A stretch of 64,000 bases of DNA from Halobacteriales archaeon YIM A00010 (GTDB lineage: Archaea > Halobacteriota > Halobacteria > Halobacteriales > Haloarculaceae), in NCBI GenBank assembly GCA_025041175.1, contig JAKCFJ010000001.1, positions 2,373,526 through 2,437,525 of the forward strand, written 5' to 3'. Positions 2,730 to 34,485 of the stretch are shown here, in pieces (positions within the stretch are counted from its first letter, which is position 1; each line of letters begins with the position of its first letter). Made by a program: the position numbers and the translations under genes. The notes below the pieces were generated by a model that saw only the letters and a list, made by a program, of their open reading frames with translations, did not search any database and was not told the DNA's origin.

Positions 2730-2987
2730 CTTCGTTGCTAAACTTGCCATAAGGGTGTAGATCCGTGGCGCTCGATCCCGTTTAGCGCTACAGGCGGAAA
2801 TGTCTACGGCTGAACCGAGGCAGCGTTGACATTCTCCGGTTTTCTCAGCACACCGCCGTCCTGCGTGGCGATCTAGTCGGTTCTCCGGCGGGTGGCACAG
2901 GTGGATTCGTGGACCTGATGTTGGGAAACGTTGTCAAGTTGATCCCAAGACAAAATAATTATCTACAACGGACTCAACTGAGCATTC
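2730..2987. other. Divergent intergenic region
   Basis: Non-coding space between the divergent pdh operon and the glycan locus. At its right end the A/T-rich stretch CAAAATAATTATCT (from 2951) is a plausible TATA box about 30 bases before the 2988 ATG, implying a leaderless transcript. I recognised no RNA gene or intact mobile element in the rest. Confidence 0.5.
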
Positions 2988-4583
2988 ATGAGTTATACAG
3001 TGGTGCGGGACTCTCTCCTCTCTTTTTTCTCCATTTCTCCTACGTCTGTTACTACGCGCGGTGTGCTTCTCTCTGCAGTCTCCCTCACGACGCTGCTCGT
3101 CGCCGTCGTTCCGGTGGTAACACTCACAACCGGTCTCCCACTCCTCGCCGTGGTGGCCGTTGCCGGCGCCGTGTATGCCGCTGGATTGGTTCTTACGGAC
3201 AACGTCATTGATGGGTTGTGGAGCGGGGTTCTCGTCCTCTGTACGTTCCAGGCCGATCTCCCGATCGCTGGGGTCGAACGGGGTGGTCGGCTCGGAGCGT
3301 ATGCATTAGAGATCATGCTGGCCGATGCCGCAGCGATTCCGCTCGCGATCCTGTTGGTGCTGTGGGGGTCATCGCGTTTCACACCAGAGGGCCGTAGCGA
3401 ACGGATTGCTGGCTACGCACTCGTCGGGCTCGTGGTCTGGTCGGCTATTGCTGCCGTCATGGGCGACGGTCCATCGACAGTTATGGGCCTTTTCTTTTCC
3501 GTTGCGCAACTACGCCATCTGCTTCTCTTTGGCGTTGCTGTGGCGATCGGCCGGTACGTTAGCATTCGAACCACCGCGTATTCGCTGCTCATTGCGGTGA
3601 GTGGACACATGCTGTTTGCGATCGCCGAGGTGTTCAATCAGGGTTCGTTCGGTCTCAGCTACCTCGGGGAAGCGAGCGGCTACGGCTTCGAAACCTTCTA
3701 CATCGGGCCAGTAGCGTTCGTGGCCTCGACGTACGCCGGTGGATTCACCGGTATTTCGCGGATCCTAATCGCGCTGTTGTTGCTCGTGACGCCGATAGCG
3801 CTAGAGCGCATCGTCAGGGGATCGAACTGGCAGCAGGTGCTCGCCCTCGGGTTCGTCGCGGGAAGCGTCTTCCTCATTCGCGTCAGCGCGACTGATTCCG
3901 GTTGGGCAGCGTTTTTGCTCACCACGCTGTTGATGCTCGGTTTGCTGGCGTACGTCCATCTCCGTGCCGACGAGACGCGAGTCGGGACGTACGATTACGC
4001 CCGCGGGTACGTCGCTACTATCGGTGCAGCACTGTCGAGCTGTTTCCTGTTTCTTTCGAGAACAGCGCCCGACGAAACCCCGGAGCCGACAACACCCTCG
4101 GAACCGACGGGTGGCTCCGGTACGCTGTCTCAGGTCGATACCGAGATACTCTCGGTGGTGGACGCCGTTCCGTTGATAAACACGGGCAACCTCTCGATAC
4201 GATTGCAGCAGTACATCGCAGGGATCGAGATCGGCATCACGCATCCGCTGTTCGGTCTCGGAGGACTGAACTTCTCCCTCGTCGCGGAGGAGTACGGCGT
4301 CCCCCGGGCGGTATCGATGCACAACGTCTACCTGTCTTTTCTCGTGGGGACAGGAATACCGGGTCTCGTCCTGTTCGTCACCAGTATCGTTGCGGTCCTC
4401 GTCGTGGCGGTCAAAAACGCCATGACGGCAGCTGCTGAGGATCGGATGCTCTGGGCGATGATCACGTGTGGGCTGCTCGGTTTCCACGCCATCAACTTCT
4501 GGATCGCCGCGGGCGAAATCGGGAAGGTTGCGTACATGACGTTCTGGGTGTTCGCCGGGGCGGTCGTCGGCTCCGTGAAATAG
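2988..4583 (+). CDS. O-antigen ligase/polymerase-like membrane protein
   Basis: Polytopic membrane protein of 531 residues with about 12 hydrophobic segments and a long extracytoplasmic loop near residues 360-410 (rich in Pro, Thr and Glu). The Wzy_C-type signature is seen around residues 405-465: YIAGIEIGITHPLFGLGG, then AVSMHNVYLSFLVGTGIPG. O-antigen ligases and polymerases share this HN-x-YL pattern. In archaea such proteins are candidates for joining or polymerising lipid-linked surface glycans. It opens the glycan locus, and the next gene (AlkP superfamily) has its own TATA box. Ligase versus polymerase cannot be separated from sequence. The ATG follows a TATA-like stretch by about 30 bases. 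Confidence 0.8.
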   Translation: MSYTVVRDSLLSFFSISPTSVTTRGVLLSAVSLTTLLVAVVPVVTLTTGLPLLAVVAVAGAVYAAGLVLTDNVIDGLWSGVLVLCTFQADLPIAGVERGGRLGAYALEIMLADAAAIPLAILLVLWGSSRFTPEGRSERIAGYALVGLVVWSAIAAVMGDGPSTVMGLFFSVAQLRHLLLFGVAVAIGRYVSIRTTAYSLLIAVSGHMLFAIAEVFNQGSFGLSYLGEASGYGFETFYIGPVAFVASTYAGGFTGISRILIALLLLVTPIALERIVRGSNWQQVLALGFVAGSVFLIRVSATDSGWAAFLLTTLLMLGLLAYVHLRADETRVGTYDYARGYVATIGAALSSCFLFLSRTAPDETPEPTTPSEPTGGSGTLSQVDTEILSVVDAVPLINTGNLSIRLQQYIAGIEIGITHPLFGLGGLNFSLVAEEYGVPRAVSMHNVYLSFLVGTGIPGLVLFVTSIVAVLVVAVKNAMTAAAEDRMLWAMITCGLLGFHAINFWIAAGEIGKVAYMTFWVFAGAVVGSVK

Positions 4584-22149: not shown

Positions 22150-22578
22150 CTACCTGATCGTTTCGGGTGGAGACAACGCAATGTCCTTCAGTTTGGTCTC
22201 CAACTCACGTCTTGCTTCTCATGGTGGGTTTTGGGCGGTGTTCAGTTCTGCGAGCGACCCTGTCGCGTGCGCTCGCCGCCACAGCTTCACCACCGCGCGA
22301 GCGACGAGGCTCCTCGGCGCGTTCGACCCAGAACGTTTTTCAGTACTCGTTGTTCAAGGGCGCGTATGGCATCGAAACCCCTGCCAGTGAATTTCGCTAC
22401 CGGGCGGCGAGCGCGCGTCGGATCCAGGGGTTGCTTTTTTTCCGCGTAGGCGACGGTGGAGCGGTGCCGAGCGGAAACGCGACGCGCCCTGAACCCGACG
22501 CCCTGCGCGGATCGGTTCGACGATCTCGATCCATTTCGAATCACTGACGACCAGATCATCGACACGACACCACAACGC
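22150..22578. other. Intergenic region trpS-pheS with a stem and T-run
   Basis: 429 bases with no gene that I can support. It contains AACCCCTG (22376-22383) and its complement CAGGGGTT (22425-22432), enclosing 41 bases and followed two bases later by seven T residues (22435-22441). This could be a terminator or the 3' end of a small RNA. No SRP RNA, RNase P or tRNA signatures were recognised. Confidence 0.5.
22376..22441 (+). terminator. Possible stem-loop terminator or small-RNA end
   Basis: Perfect 8-base stem with a large 41-base loop, then a T7 tract. The stem is more than 220 bases past the trpS stop, so it may end an independent transcript. The pheS transcript would start downstream. 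Confidence 0.35.
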
Positions 22579-24087
22579 ATGAAACTCCCACGAACCCAAG
22601 CCGCCGTGCTCGAAGCGGCGAGCGCGACGGAAACGCGACCGATCGCGGAGATCGCTGACGAAACGGACGAGAACCGGACGACAATCACCCGTGCGGCGTT
22701 CGAACTCGAAGAGTCGGGCCTGCTCGACATCGTCGAGGAGACGACCGAATCCGTCAGTTTGACCACGGAGGGCGAGCGCTACGACGAGCACGGCCTCCCC
22801 GAGATCCGGCTCTACCGGGCCGCCGTCGAGCGCGGTGCCGAGGGGTCTGTCCCGATCGGTGAACTCCTCGGGCCGGCGGATCTCGACGGCCCTGCGGTGG
22901 AGATCGCGCTGTCGAACTTCGCACGCAAGGGGTACGGCGAAATCGAGAACGGAGCCGTCTCCGTCGATTCCGGTCTCGATCCCGACTCGGACGCCGAAGC
23001 CGCCGCGCTGTCGGAGATCGCTGGGGAAACGGACGACGCTCCCCCGGGGAGCGTGTTGGATCAGTTGGAACGCCGTGATCTCGTGGCCCGCGAGGAGTCC
23101 ACGGCACGATCGGTCGCGCTCACCGACGACGGCGTGACCGCGCTCATGGAGGGCGTCGAGATCGCTGACACCGTCGGACAGCTCACGCCGGAACTGCTGA
23201 CGAGCGGGGAGTGGCAGACCGTCGACTTCGCGGAGTACAACGTGGCGGCCGACGCAGAAACGATCCACGGCGGCCGAACGCATGTGCTGCGCCGGATCGC
23301 GGACCGGGTGAAACGCGTGCTCGTCGGGATGGGGTTCGAGGAGATGGACGGTCCCCACGCGGACGCGGATTTCTGGATCAACGACGCGCTGTTCATGCCC
23401 CAGGACCATCCGGCGCGCACCCACTGGGACCGGTTCGCGCTTTCGGATCCCGAACACACCGACGATCTCCCCGAGGAACTGGTCGATCGCGTTCGTTCGG
23501 CCCACCGCAACGGCGTCGGCGAGCAAGGTGACGGCTACCACTCCCCGTGGGACGAGGACTTTTCCCGCGAACTCGCGCTGCGCGGACACACGACGAACCT
23601 CTCGATGCGATATCTCGCCGGAGAGGCGGAGGGCGATCTCGAACCGCCTCAGCGGTATTTCAGCATCGAAAAGGTGTATCGCAACGACACCCTCGACGCG
23701 ACCCACTTGTTGGAATTCTTCCAGATCGAAGGGTGGGTGATGGCCGAGGAGCTATCGGTGCGCGATCTGATGGGAACGTTCACGGAGTTTTACGAACAGT
23801 TTGGCATCACTGATGTTCAGTTCAAGCCCCACTACAACCCCTACACTGAGCCGAGTTTCGAGCTGTTCGGTCGTCATCCGACGACGGGTGAACTCATCGA
23901 GATCGGTAACAGTGGGCTGTTCCGCCCGGAGGTGCTCGAACCGCTCGGCGTGGAGTGTGATGTGATGGCGTGGGGACTCGCGCTCGAACGGCTCGCAATG
24001 CTCATCACCGGCGCGGAGGACATCCGGGATCTCCACGGTACGCTCACGGATCTCGACTTCCTGCGGACCGCGGAGGTGACTCTCTAA
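22579..24087 (+). CDS. pheS: Phenylalanyl-tRNA synthetase, alpha subunit
   Basis: Catalytic alpha subunit (502 aa, archaeal size) of the alpha2-beta2 class II synthetase. The first ~190 residues are stacked winged-helix-like domains used to bind tRNA (KLPRTQAAVLEAASATETRP, TITRAAFELEESGLL). Catalytic motifs follow: GFEEMDGPHADADFWINDAL then FMPQDHPARTHWDRF (motif 1 region), YRNDTLDATHLLEFFQIEGW (motif 2), and MAWGLALERLAMLITG (motif 3). The ATG at 22579 is chosen because it begins the conserved N-terminal helix; the frame is open upstream but without similarity. The stop is TAA at 24085-24087, directly at a repeat insertion that separates it from pheT. Confidence 0.95.
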   Translation: MKLPRTQAAVLEAASATETRPIAEIADETDENRTTITRAAFELEESGLLDIVEETTESVSLTTEGERYDEHGLPEIRLYRAAVERGAEGSVPIGELLGPADLDGPAVEIALSNFARKGYGEIENGAVSVDSGLDPDSDAEAAALSEIAGETDDAPPGSVLDQLERRDLVAREESTARSVALTDDGVTALMEGVEIADTVGQLTPELLTSGEWQTVDFAEYNVAADAETIHGGRTHVLRRIADRVKRVLVGMGFEEMDGPHADADFWINDALFMPQDHPARTHWDRFALSDPEHTDDLPEELVDRVRSAHRNGVGEQGDGYHSPWDEDFSRELALRGHTTNLSMRYLAGEAEGDLEPPQRYFSIEKVYRNDTLDATHLLEFFQIEGWVMAEELSVRDLMGTFTEFYEQFGITDVQFKPHYNPYTEPSFELFGRHPTTGELIEIGNSGLFRPEVLEPLGVECDVMAWGLALERLAMLITGAEDIRDLHGTLTDLDFLRTAEVTL

Positions 24088-24343
24088 TGCCCCACGTTTT
24101 TTCCACTCCCACCTTTTTTCCGCTCGGGTGGACTTCGTCCACCGCTCGCCGCGCGAGAGCTCTGCTCTCGCGCGTTCCCACTCGCTTCGCTCGCGGGAAC
24201 GCAAAAAACGTGGGCGAAAAAAAGCCGCACGCTTCGCTCGCGGTGAGCGTACTCACGCACTGCACTGTTCGCACAAATAAGCTGCCTGGCGAGAACGTTG
24301 CTCCCGCAGTGAGTAACAGCATGGAGGTGAATCTCTAATGCCC
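24072..24343. repeat. Palindrome-rich insertion between pheS and pheT with 21-base flanking duplication
   Basis: The 21 bases at 24072-24092 (end of pheS, TAA stop and a following ATGCCC) recur at 24323-24343 with one mismatch. There the TAATGCCC is the real start of pheT. Between them lie about 230 bases rich in hairpins: CCCACGTTTTTT (24091-24102) pairs with AAAAAACGTGGG (24203-24214); inside are GGTGGACTTCGTCCACC, GCGCGAGAGCTCTGCTCTCGCGC-type and GTTCCC...GGGAAC stems. The same sequence family recurs at 32769-32925. A frame opening at the first ATGCCC is a chance reading frame of the repeat, not a gene. Confidence 0.8.
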
Positions 24344-26053
24344 GTTGTCGACATCAATACCGACGAACTCCGCCAACTCGCCGCGACAGAGAAGGACGAC
24401 GACGAACTGAAGCGGGATCTGTTCGCGCTCGGACTGGAGTACGAGGGCGAAACCGACGACGGTGACCTGCAGTTCGAGTTCGCTCCGGACCGGCTGGATC
24501 GGCTCAGCGTCGAGGGGGTCGCGCGCTCGCTCCGGTACCAGTACGGCCACGACCGGGGCGTGTACCTCCCCACCACCAACGATCCCGAATGGGTCATCGA
24601 GGTCGAAGAGTCCGTCCCGGACGAGCGCCCGTACGTCACCGGCGCGGTCGTCCGCGGACTCGACATGGGCGAGGAGGAACTGCAGTCGCTCATCCAGCTC
24701 CAGGAGAAACTCCACGCGACGATGGGTCGCCAGCGCGCGAAAGGAGCGATCGGGGTTCACGACCTCACGATGCTCAAAGGACACCGGACTGACGGAGATC
24801 GGTCGAAATCGATCACGTACCGGGGCATCGAGCCGGAGGGTGACCGGTTCGTTCCGTTGGACAGCGACGCGGAGCTCACGCCCGCCGGCGTGCTTTCTGA
24901 TCATCCGACCGGCGAGCAGTACGCCGATCTCGTCGCGGACTACGAGCGCTACCCCGCGATCTACGACGACATCGGGCTGTTCTCGCTCCCGCCGGTCATC
25001 AATGGCCGCCGGACGGAGGTCTCGACCGATTCGCGGGATCTGTTCATCGAACTGACCGGGACCGACCAGTGGACCATCGACAAGATGTGCACCATCATCT
25101 GCTACGCGCTCGACGCGCGCGGCGGCCGGATCGAACGGGTTGCGGTCGAGTATCCCGATCGACAGCTCGACCGTCCCGATCTTTCGGTCACGCGCAAAAC
25201 CGTCGCCCACGAGCGCATCGAGTCGGTGCTCGGGATCGATCTCGACGCCGATAGCGTGGTCGACTACCTCGAACGGGCCGGACTCGACGCCGAGGTCGGT
25301 GACGATCGGGTCTACGAAGTCTCCGTCCCGCCCTACCGCGTCGACGTGCTCCACTCGATCGATGTCGTCGACGATGTCGGTCGGGCCTACGGCTTCAACG
25401 ACCTCGAACCGGGCTATCCCGACGTGAGCACCATCGGCGGCTGTCACGACCGCACCCGGCGCGAGGACGCCGTTCGGGACGTGCTCGTCGGATTGGGCTT
25501 CGAGGACATGCTGAACTTCTATCTCTCCAGCGAACGGGAGTGTTTTGACCGGATGAACCTCTCGTTCGATTCCGATCCCAGCAGTGACGCGCCGTTCGGC
25601 GTCGCACGCCCGCCGACGATCACCGAACCGTACAGCGAGGAGTACACCATCGTCCGGACGTGGGCGCTTCCCTCGCTCCTGATGGTGCTCGAGAACAACA
25701 CCCACCGGAGCTACCCACAGGACCTCTCGGAGATCGGGCTGTCCGCCGCAGTGGACGAGAGCGAGGAGACGAAGGTCCACGAGCACCGGACGGTCGCGGC
25801 GGTTCTCGCGCGCACTGACGCCAGCTACGAGGACGCCAAAGCCCGCCTCCAAGCGATCGCTGCCGCGCTCGGTGTGACGCTCGAAACGCCGCCGACCGCC
25901 CACCCGAGCTTCATCGACGGACGCACTGCCGAGGTGGTGCTCGATGGGGAGCGCGCGGGCGTCGTCGGAGAGATCCATCCAAAAGTGCTCCTCGAACACG
26001 ACCTCGAACTGCCCGTCGCGGCGTTCGAGTTCGATCTGGCAGCGATGGAGTGA
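24338..26053 (+). CDS. pheT: Phenylalanyl-tRNA synthetase, beta subunit
   Basis: Beta subunit (571 aa, archaeal length). It starts MPVVDINTDELRQLAATEKD. B1/B5-type domains carry FAPDRLDRLSVEGVARSLRY and GTDQWTIDKMCTIICYALDA. VSVPPYRVDVLHSIDVVDDV and GRAYGFNDLEPGYP belong to the B5 and inactive class II-like domains, and ERAGVVGEIHPKVLLEHDLE closes the protein. It partners with pheS. The start ATG overlaps a TAA inherited from the duplicated pheS end, implying that the ancestral genes overlapped as TAATG. pheST transcripts would now contain about 250 bases of structured repeat. Confidence 0.95.
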   Translation: MPVVDINTDELRQLAATEKDDDELKRDLFALGLEYEGETDDGDLQFEFAPDRLDRLSVEGVARSLRYQYGHDRGVYLPTTNDPEWVIEVEESVPDERPYVTGAVVRGLDMGEEELQSLIQLQEKLHATMGRQRAKGAIGVHDLTMLKGHRTDGDRSKSITYRGIEPEGDRFVPLDSDAELTPAGVLSDHPTGEQYADLVADYERYPAIYDDIGLFSLPPVINGRRTEVSTDSRDLFIELTGTDQWTIDKMCTIICYALDARGGRIERVAVEYPDRQLDRPDLSVTRKTVAHERIESVLGIDLDADSVVDYLERAGLDAEVGDDRVYEVSVPPYRVDVLHSIDVVDDVGRAYGFNDLEPGYPDVSTIGGCHDRTRREDAVRDVLVGLGFEDMLNFYLSSERECFDRMNLSFDSDPSSDAPFGVARPPTITEPYSEEYTIVRTWALPSLLMVLENNTHRSYPQDLSEIGLSAAVDESEETKVHEHRTVAAVLARTDASYEDAKARLQAIAAALGVTLETPPTAHPSFIDGRTAEVVLDGERAGVVGEIHPKVLLEHDLELPVAAFEFDLAAME

Positions 26054-32768: not shown

Positions 32769-32925
32769 TTCTCATCCGCCACCTTTTTTCCGTTCGGGTG
32801 GCCGAAGGCCACCCTCACGCAAAAAACGTGGGCGAAAAAAAGCCGCTCGCTCGTTCCCACTCGCTCCGCTCGCGGGAACTTCGCTCGCGGTGGGTGTACT
32901 CACGTTACCGCGACCGCACCGCAGG
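32769..32925. repeat. Palindrome-rich repeat, copy 2
   Basis: Shares long blocks with the pheS-pheT insertion: CCACCTTTTTTCCG, then TCGGGTGG, CGCAAAAAACGTGGGCGA, GTTCCCACTCGCT and CGCTCGCGGGAAC, followed by TTCGCTCGCGGTG. The internal hairpin here is GGTGGCCGAAGGCCACC instead of GGTGGACTTCGTCCACC, a compensated arm change that keeps the stem. It follows the ferritin-like gene within about 10 bases and may act as a 3' structured end. No flanking duplication was found here. The rest of 32759-33123 holds no gene. Confidence 0.75.
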
Positions 32926-33784: not shown

Positions 33785-34342
33785 TCAGTCGTCGGTGGTG
33801 GATGCAGCGGCGGCCGCACCGACGACGTGTACCAGCTCGGGATGACGCTGCTGTAAGCCAGCTAGATCACCGCGCTGGCGGTACTTACAGTACTGCACGA
33901 GCGTTTCAACCAAGCAGGCTGGCGCACTCTCTGCATCCGACTTCTCGGTGATCTCGGCGGGATCACGTGCGTCGTCGGGCGTGAACACGGATTGGACTAT
34001 GTCACCATCACGCTGTTCGTGAAAGCGCACGCATGCGCCGTTGTCGAACCAGCATTCGACGATCATCTCACCGGTGGCCGCGTAGCGGGTGAACCGCGCG
34101 ATCCCCGGTAACTCCTCGTAGCCGCCCGTTCGGGTCCTGCCAAGCCCCGCCATCGCCAGTATCTGCTCGATCTGGGTGGCGTGGGCACAGCCGGTCGACT
34201 GGCAGGGTCTACACCAGAGTCCTTCACCCACGTCGATGCTGTGGTACAGCTCTGCCTTCGTAATCACGTCCCGATCCTCGACGGCCGAGAGGTTCACGAC
34301 CTCGCCCTGCCGATCCCGGAACTGGAACAGCGGCAAACTCAT
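33785..34342 (-). CDS. Cysteine-containing hypothetical protein coupled to a microprotein
   Basis: A 185-residue protein, MSLPLFQFRDRQGEVVNLSA at the start. Residues ~35-60 hold GLWCRPCQSTGCAHATQIEQ, with C-x2-C-x4-C-x-H, a possible zinc or Fe-S site. The C-terminal part is helical (CLVETLVQYCKYRQRGDLAG) with an alanine-rich tail. I do not recognise the family. The start ATG (34340-34342) overlaps the stop TGA (34339-34341) of the 48-residue zinc-finger-like gene upstream, a translational-coupling arrangement that fixes the start and argues both genes are real. The longer in-frame start upstream would override this overlap and is rejected. Confidence 0.6.
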   Translation of the reverse strand: MSLPLFQFRDRQGEVVNLSAVEDRDVITKAELYHSIDVGEGLWCRPCQSTGCAHATQIEQILAMAGLGRTRTGGYEELPGIARFTRYAATGEMIVECWFDNGACVRFHEQRDGDIVQSVFTPDDARDPAEITEKSDAESAPACLVETLVQYCKYRQRGDLAGLQQRHPELVHVVGAAAAASTTDD

Positions 34343-34485
34343 CGCCACCACCGCCCCAGCGGGCAGCCCATCCGGTGTTCGAGGCGCGTGCGGACCGGCC
34401 GACCACACACCGGACAGCGCGTTCTCTGGTTATCATTCTGATACGATGCGACACCGTTACATGCCTCTGATTCGTTCCCTGTCAT
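34339..34485 (-). CDS. 48-residue CPxCG-like zinc-finger microprotein
   Basis: A very short ORF starting MTGNESEACNGVASYQND and containing RCPVCGRPVRTRLEHRMGC, which has the CPxCG knuckle typical of haloarchaeal small zinc-finger proteins, with a His and a third Cys 11-14 residues on. It overlaps the following gene by ATGA. Small CPxCG proteins in haloarchaea are often regulators or adaptors. A complete four-ligand zinc site would be C, C, H, C. The function here is unknown; the coupling suggests it acts with the 185-residue partner. Confidence 0.5.
   Translation of the reverse strand: MTGNESEACNGVASYQNDNQRTRCPVCGRPVRTRLEHRMGCPLGRWWR

Follow-up and report, generated by a model that had tools for sequence, protein, structure and literature searches.

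How did the pheS/pheT junction, in most relatives a plain overlap of stop and start, come to be present twice on either side of a palindrome-rich repeat, and how might translation pass from one gene to the other? The locus lies in a window of 64,000 nt (the whole stretch of DNA that was analysed) from a genome, here G000, that appears from its sequence to belong to the genus Halocatena. As argued below, a palindromic mobile element, called E, probably inserted at the overlap and duplicated 21 nt of its target, as it does with longer stretches at a minority of other sites, and ribosomes may be relayed through it.

The doubled pheS/pheT junction

The motif GGAGGTGAxTCTCTAATGCCC is found at 24072-24092 (GGAGGTGACTCTCTAATGCCC) and again at 24323-24343 (GGAGGTGAATCTCTAATGCCC), with a spacing of 251 nt and 20 of 21 positions identical. 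These are the only sites on the plus strand of the 64 kb window when up to four substitutions are allowed. Each duplicate comprises the stop/start overlap and a GGAGGTGA motif, which we take to be Shine-Dalgarno-like. Stop and start overlap in both TAATG sites (24085-24089 and 24336-24340); the TAA at 24085-24087 is the pheS stop, while the ATG at 24338-24340 is the start of pheT. The sequence between the repeats is rich in palindromes and folds more stably than shuffled versions (z-score -3.5). The features of the locus, together with the second copy of E in the window, are as follows:

22456-24087, plus strand: pheS (phenylalanyl-tRNA synthetase alpha chain), longest frame, stop TAA at 24085-24087
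24072-24092, plus strand: left 21-nt target duplicate, with the Shine-Dalgarno-like motif, the pheS stop and the original pheT start
24087-24338, plus strand: proposed relay frame that crosses the insert (83 codons), beginning in the first TAATG and ending with the stop of the second
about 24092-24256, plus strand: palindromic mobile element E, with a double T-run left arm, nested hairpins, A-runs and the palindromic end GTACTCAC
24257-24322, plus strand: 66-nt tail that separates E from the right duplicate; positions 24306-24345 are common to the H. pleomorpha phe locus only
24323-24343, plus strand: right 21-nt target duplicate, with the Shine-Dalgarno-like motif, TAATG and the present pheT start
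24338-26053, plus strand: pheT (phenylalanyl-tRNA synthetase beta chain)
32779-32904, plus strand: second copy of E

The original prediction had described the junction as doubled, 251 nt apart, around a palindrome-rich repeat, and its coordinates proved exact, with one mismatch between the two copies. It also held that both genes were left intact; both are complete, but the ancestral 1-nt overlap has been broken and there are two overlaps instead. When it comes to the tail (24257-24322), the genus yielded no other convincing match than the same locus of one sister species.

In all, 146 genomes of the family were searched for pheT and for the C-terminal 108 amino acids of pheS. Each was matched in 142 genomes, and with two partial cases left out both genes were measurable in 140. 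The plain 1-nt overlap, which the original prediction had expected in most relatives, is present in 135 of the 140, a count that is slightly inflated if G002 and G003, which share the same coordinates at every locus searched, are the same or near-identical genomes. The exceptions are this genome (+251 nt), H. pleomorpha (G004, +226 nt), G041 (+2 nt), G029 (+1812 nt) and G098 (+13492 nt). Among the 140 genomes, the E-type insert is found only in G000 and H. pleomorpha, which together with the predominance of the plain overlap shows it to be an insertion. The longer junction in G029, a member of another genus, is a 1.8 kb insertion between pheS and pheT without E (L321, G029:C1:1269900-1272500). 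By eye it carries a transporter-like gene; the C-terminus of pheS is altered there and GGAGG...TGATG is retained before pheT.

Element E and proposed translation across the insert

The minimum form of E is 96-97 nt, running from CCACC to GTACTCAC, and bigger copies have extra hairpin modules. In the large copies at L018, L028, L113, L120 and other loci, nested hairpin modules are inserted at a few fixed points, so that E looks modular, with palindromes stacked within palindromes. The core of E gave 63 matches in its own genome, at least 62 of them other than the phe copy (40 of 100 candidates scored). An exact pattern covering 21 nt of the left end has 47 occurrences in G000, 22 in H. pleomorpha and 19 in G005; G081 has two, while G044, G046, G066 and G145 have a single one each, a total of eight of the 146 genomes. 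Three Halocatena genomes have E in abundance, and in five other genera it is rare. Diverged copies are present in G001 and G006, and no copies, diverged ones included, were found in G003. The element is not named in the literature that was searched, a selection that left most subscription journals outside.

E tends to be found just after genes. Of 96 copies, 39 start at most 45 nt past the stop of a frame that has 70 codons or more, 20 of them at 0-4 nt, while 526 of 3000 random positions in the same loci fall within 45 nt after a stop. Since its starts cluster after stops, E is placed as one would expect of a 3' end or terminator element, and it may terminate transcription. The phe copy starts 4 nt past the pheS stop, and its T-runs (TTTTTT) follow just after that stop. 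It is therefore conceivable that E is a terminator here and that pheT is transcribed from a new promoter in the tail, the two genes now being separate units and the open frame through the insert incidental. The T-runs directly after pheS and the 20 copies placed 0-4 nt past a stop codon fit this, as does CACAAATAAG in the tail, by eye about 60 nt before the pheT start. Against it, the tail of H. pleomorpha shows no comparable AT-rich stretch by eye, and we consider this reading possible, though doubtful.

The reading preferred here is a translational relay. An open frame of 83 codons begins at the first ATG (24087), crosses the insert and is closed by the TAA of the second TAATG. In H. pleomorpha a frame of 74 codons runs from an ATG 4 nt past the position of the pheS stop (TAATATG) to a TGA that overlaps pheT. 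The two inserts differ by 25 nt and the two frames by 27 nt, a multiple of three. Shuffled inserts are open with a probability of 0.24 and 0.125, and 29 of 97 other E copies are open for at least 81 codons in the frame of the phe relay, so that openness alone is weak evidence for a relay; openness plus phase would occur by chance with a probability of about 0.1 per species. The frames thus hint, with weak statistical support, at a relay between pheS and pheT. The poverty of E in stop codons was also considered as a sign of selected read-through and was found unconvincing, 99 of 150 sense frames being open against 86.7 expected from shuffles.

A second overlap is also split by E. ORF1 (about 48 amino acids, with a zinc-finger-like CPxC motif) overlaps ORF2 (about 185-200 amino acids) in a repeated gene pair that lies at 33788-34384 on the minus strand of the window, with about 34 further copies in G000, for instance at L003 (2310-2906). 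At several loci the TGATG overlap of this pair is interrupted by E; nine loci were inspected. The first ATG is intact in five of them; the frame through E ends with a 4-nt overlap of the next start in three, ends 7 nt before the next start in one, and runs in frame into ORF2 in one. As for the other four loci, ORF1 is truncated in three and one has no E left end.

In Haloferax volcanii, nine of nine overlapping gene pairs were strictly coupled (PMC6728339) and reinitiation was abolished by a 22-nt gap (PMC10666635). If a termination-reinitiation pair is taken as a stop and a start that overlap or lie within about 20 nt of each other, both TAATG sites would be such pairs. As the duplicated 21 nt would form a complete termination-reinitiation signal, ribosomes leaving pheS could restart at the first ATG, read the 83-codon frame through E, terminate at the second TAATG and there start afresh on pheT. 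Such a relay would keep pheS and pheT translationally linked, and might also prevent transcript termination at the T-runs of E. In this respect nature offers, at the phe locus, a test of how translational coupling in haloarchaea depends on distance.

Flanking duplications at phe and elsewhere

For 99 distinct copies of E, the left flank was aligned with the sequence right of E; the left copy of a duplication had to end at most 14 nt from E, and a score of at least 18 was required. A flanking duplication adjoining the left end of E was found at 13 of the 99 copies, and one more (L028) was noticed by eye and then aligned. No duplication was detectable at 86 of the 99, and these copies may be old, short or made otherwise. 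Eight of the 13 duplications lie at the 3' end of ORF2, with 74-85% identity; they may share a history and so not be independent. The remaining five sites are unrelated to each other. L311, in G000, has a 78-nt duplication of 96% identity, L023 one of 75 nt (87%), L015 one of 39 nt (82%) and phe one of 21 nt (95%), while at L318, in another genus (G081:C29, about 2940-3140), 54 nt of a gene 3' end are duplicated around E with 98% identity. The near-perfect duplication at L318 is a recent event.

Because earlier null distributions were inflated by the repeated gene, a cleaner one was made from 6000 pairs of left and right flanks taken from different E copies; 99% of these score 11.5 or less, and the top of the distribution is inflated by overlapping loci and the repeated gene. 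The phe duplication scores 18.5, more than chance would give. When copies with ORF2 in the left flank are set aside, 91 remain, and of these exactly the five sites named above score at least 18.5, the next best scoring 10.

Comparison with relatives confirms the duplication at three sites where the target is found as a single copy, namely phe, L015 (about 44 nt) and L028 (48 nt). At L015, the single target copy in G003 aligns with both flanks, with an overlap of 44 nt; the insertion is also present in H. pleomorpha, and E sequence is found there in G005 too. At L028, the 48 nt are present twice in G000 and once in both H. pleomorpha and G005. No syntenic empty site was found in relatives for L023. 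Judged by eye, the duplicates at L318, L311, L028 and the ORF2 sites are gene 3' ends including the stop, that at L318 presumably from a hisF-like gene, while the L023 duplicate is the start region of a gene that we take to be purD-like. The neighbouring genes are thus left complete, as at phe. With the duplicated stretch each neighbour receives a stop, a start or a promoter of its own, and such duplications explain how a repeat can settle in dense operons and at the ends of genes without destroying them.

The single-copy targets and the 135 empty phe sites bear out the original prediction of an insertion with a long target duplication, and the search it had proposed for duplications around other copies was productive. 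Its broader claim, that such an element can spread with a large target duplication, is supported by the 13 copies, with long duplications at L311, L318 and L023, although none is detectable at the other 86.

By pheT the nearest named relatives are H. pleomorpha (88%), H. marina (G003, 79%) and Actinarchaeum halophilum (G001, 75%). G005 has no insert at phe, though it is nearer than G003 by pheT, so that the insertion took place in the ancestor of G000 and H. pleomorpha, or there were two events. The insert of H. pleomorpha also belongs to the E family and lies at this very point, and the two have the right tail in common, which speaks against two insertions. The two phe copies differ in the subtype of their E core, the sequence between the A-runs being CGTGGGCG or TCTGGACC. 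The duplicates are more alike within a species than between the two species, both of those in G000 having TCTCTAATGCCC and both of those in H. pleomorpha ACGTACT. One old insertion passed on by descent would need parallel changes in the duplicates, absent later conversion or introgression. The likeness would be explained by gene conversion between the duplicates, or by introgression in which the short flanks took on the recipient's sequence, and two separate insertions might also cause it. A version of this in which the insert allele was gained from a relative by homologous recombination, with mismatches in its short flanks repaired to match the recipient junction, would move the duplication to an earlier event elsewhere. 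This accounts for the species-specific variants in both duplicates, but gene conversion between the copies does so equally well, no donor has been identified, and the duplicates at L015 fit simple vertical descent; we find recombination from a relative rather unlikely.

It has also to be considered whether the junction was first duplicated in tandem by replication slippage, E entering later between the copies. Some ORF2 loci with the order gene, E, gene fragment, E (G004:C10) do resemble a tandem duplication of fragment plus E. At phe, L311, L318 and L023, however, the left end of E lies -3 to +4 nt from the left duplicate, which chance entry into an existing duplication would not give, and a doubled junction without E is found in no genome examined, making this order of events improbable. 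That pheT instead re-evolved a similar ribosome-binding site by selection after E had split the operon, with no target duplication, would account for the GGAGG core, expected from function alone, but is largely refuted by the other copies with duplicates of 39-78 nt that lack such a function and by the single-copy targets at L015 and L028, and it is very improbable also because the 20/21 match includes CTCTAATGCCC, for which conservation is needed in an overlap but not elsewhere.

In the preferred reading, then, E probably inserted in an ancestor of G000 and H. pleomorpha at the pheS/pheT overlap with duplication of 21 nt, and at a minority of other sites it duplicates 39-78 nt, possibly more than 100 nt. 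The duplication may come from two nicks, or from a template switch, tens of nucleotides apart, one end of E probably always being joined at CCCACC/CCCACG while the other end is variable.

Element E compared with known mobile repeats

The original prediction had called the repeat REP-like. REPs and BIMEs are, like E, palindromic, extragenic and present in many copies. A REP is recognised by a GTAG/CGTC-type end and by a RAYT transposase that goes with it. Target duplication is, to our knowledge, no known feature of REPs. The size also differs, REPs being given as 20-40 bp (PMC3733652) and E having a minimum of about 96 nt. As far as the comparison goes, the family name appears to be wrong.

By description, the closest known kind is the YPAL/RU-2 palindromic elements of Yersinia. 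According to PMC2229807 these are, like E, small (YPAL is about 168 bp), not A+T-rich and provided with internal palindromes; they are linked to upstream genes, have an open frame and are known from filled and empty sites. YPAL target duplications are variable, at 3-26 bp (PMC2229807), and those of E likewise vary, the five sites outside ORF2 ranging from 21 to 78 nt. E differs in being archaeal, in having nested hairpin modules and two T-runs, and in duplications as long as 54-78 nt at clear single sites, perhaps even longer than 100 nt.

Two haloarchaeal groups are also relevant. The SMRs and PATEs of Haloquadratum walsbyi share with E a size of about 80-110 bp and the lack of a transposase, and their mobility is described either as of unknown mechanism or as IS605-linked; they are reported to be without target duplications (PMC3119063), whereas E has them at 13 of 99 copies. 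Haloarchaeal MITEs are short, non-autonomous and multi-copy and have target duplications, as does E (PMC3119063, PMC10969869). MITE duplications follow the donor transposase, with 5, 8 and 10 bp the commonest for Halobacterium transposons (PMC3119063). Short duplications of fixed length would be expected of a MITE, whereas those of E range from 21 to 78 nt. Filing E as a REP or a MITE was not adopted. No terminal inverted repeat could be established across a whole solo copy of E. A target-primed, SINE-like retroelement would be marked by a reverse transcriptase acting in trans, by variable truncation at one end and by target duplications that are long and variable; in E, long duplications and a variable tail side are observed.

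Duplications longer than that at phe, as carried by other E copies, are unusual for such elements. At 40-80 nt they are well above the lengths given as commonest for Halobacterium transposons (5, 8 and 10 bp, PMC3119063) and those given for YPAL (3-26 bp, PMC2229807), and point to an unrecognised movement route of transposase-free archaeal repeats. Tentatively, and with less than even confidence, E may stand for an archaeal class of hairpin elements that moves with very long, variable duplications (tens to more than 100 nt) and, when a duplication copies a complete termination-reinitiation signal, is able to create a small ribosome-relay gene between operon partners.

No partner transposase of E was found, and ORF2 has no transposase match. 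ORF1-ORF2 has no match in Pfam or NCBIfam, and the predicted structure of ORF2 (mean pLDDT 66) gave no PDB match at an E-value of 0.001 or better. ORF2 gave 41 matches in G000, fragments included, 18-24 in G001, G004, G005 and G006 and one in G003, and is found in seven of the 146 genomes, all of the Halocatena genus. Several ORF1-ORF2 units are bracketed by inverted copies of E, yet E is also present in five other genera without ORF2. The pair was considered as the mover of E and rejected, because G081 has an E copy with a long duplication and ORF2 was not found there. Upstream of ORF1-ORF2 there is a conserved, apparently structured leader, GCGCCGGGTG..CACCCGACGC..GGGTTCTC, seen by eye for instance at L120 (from about 860) and L027.
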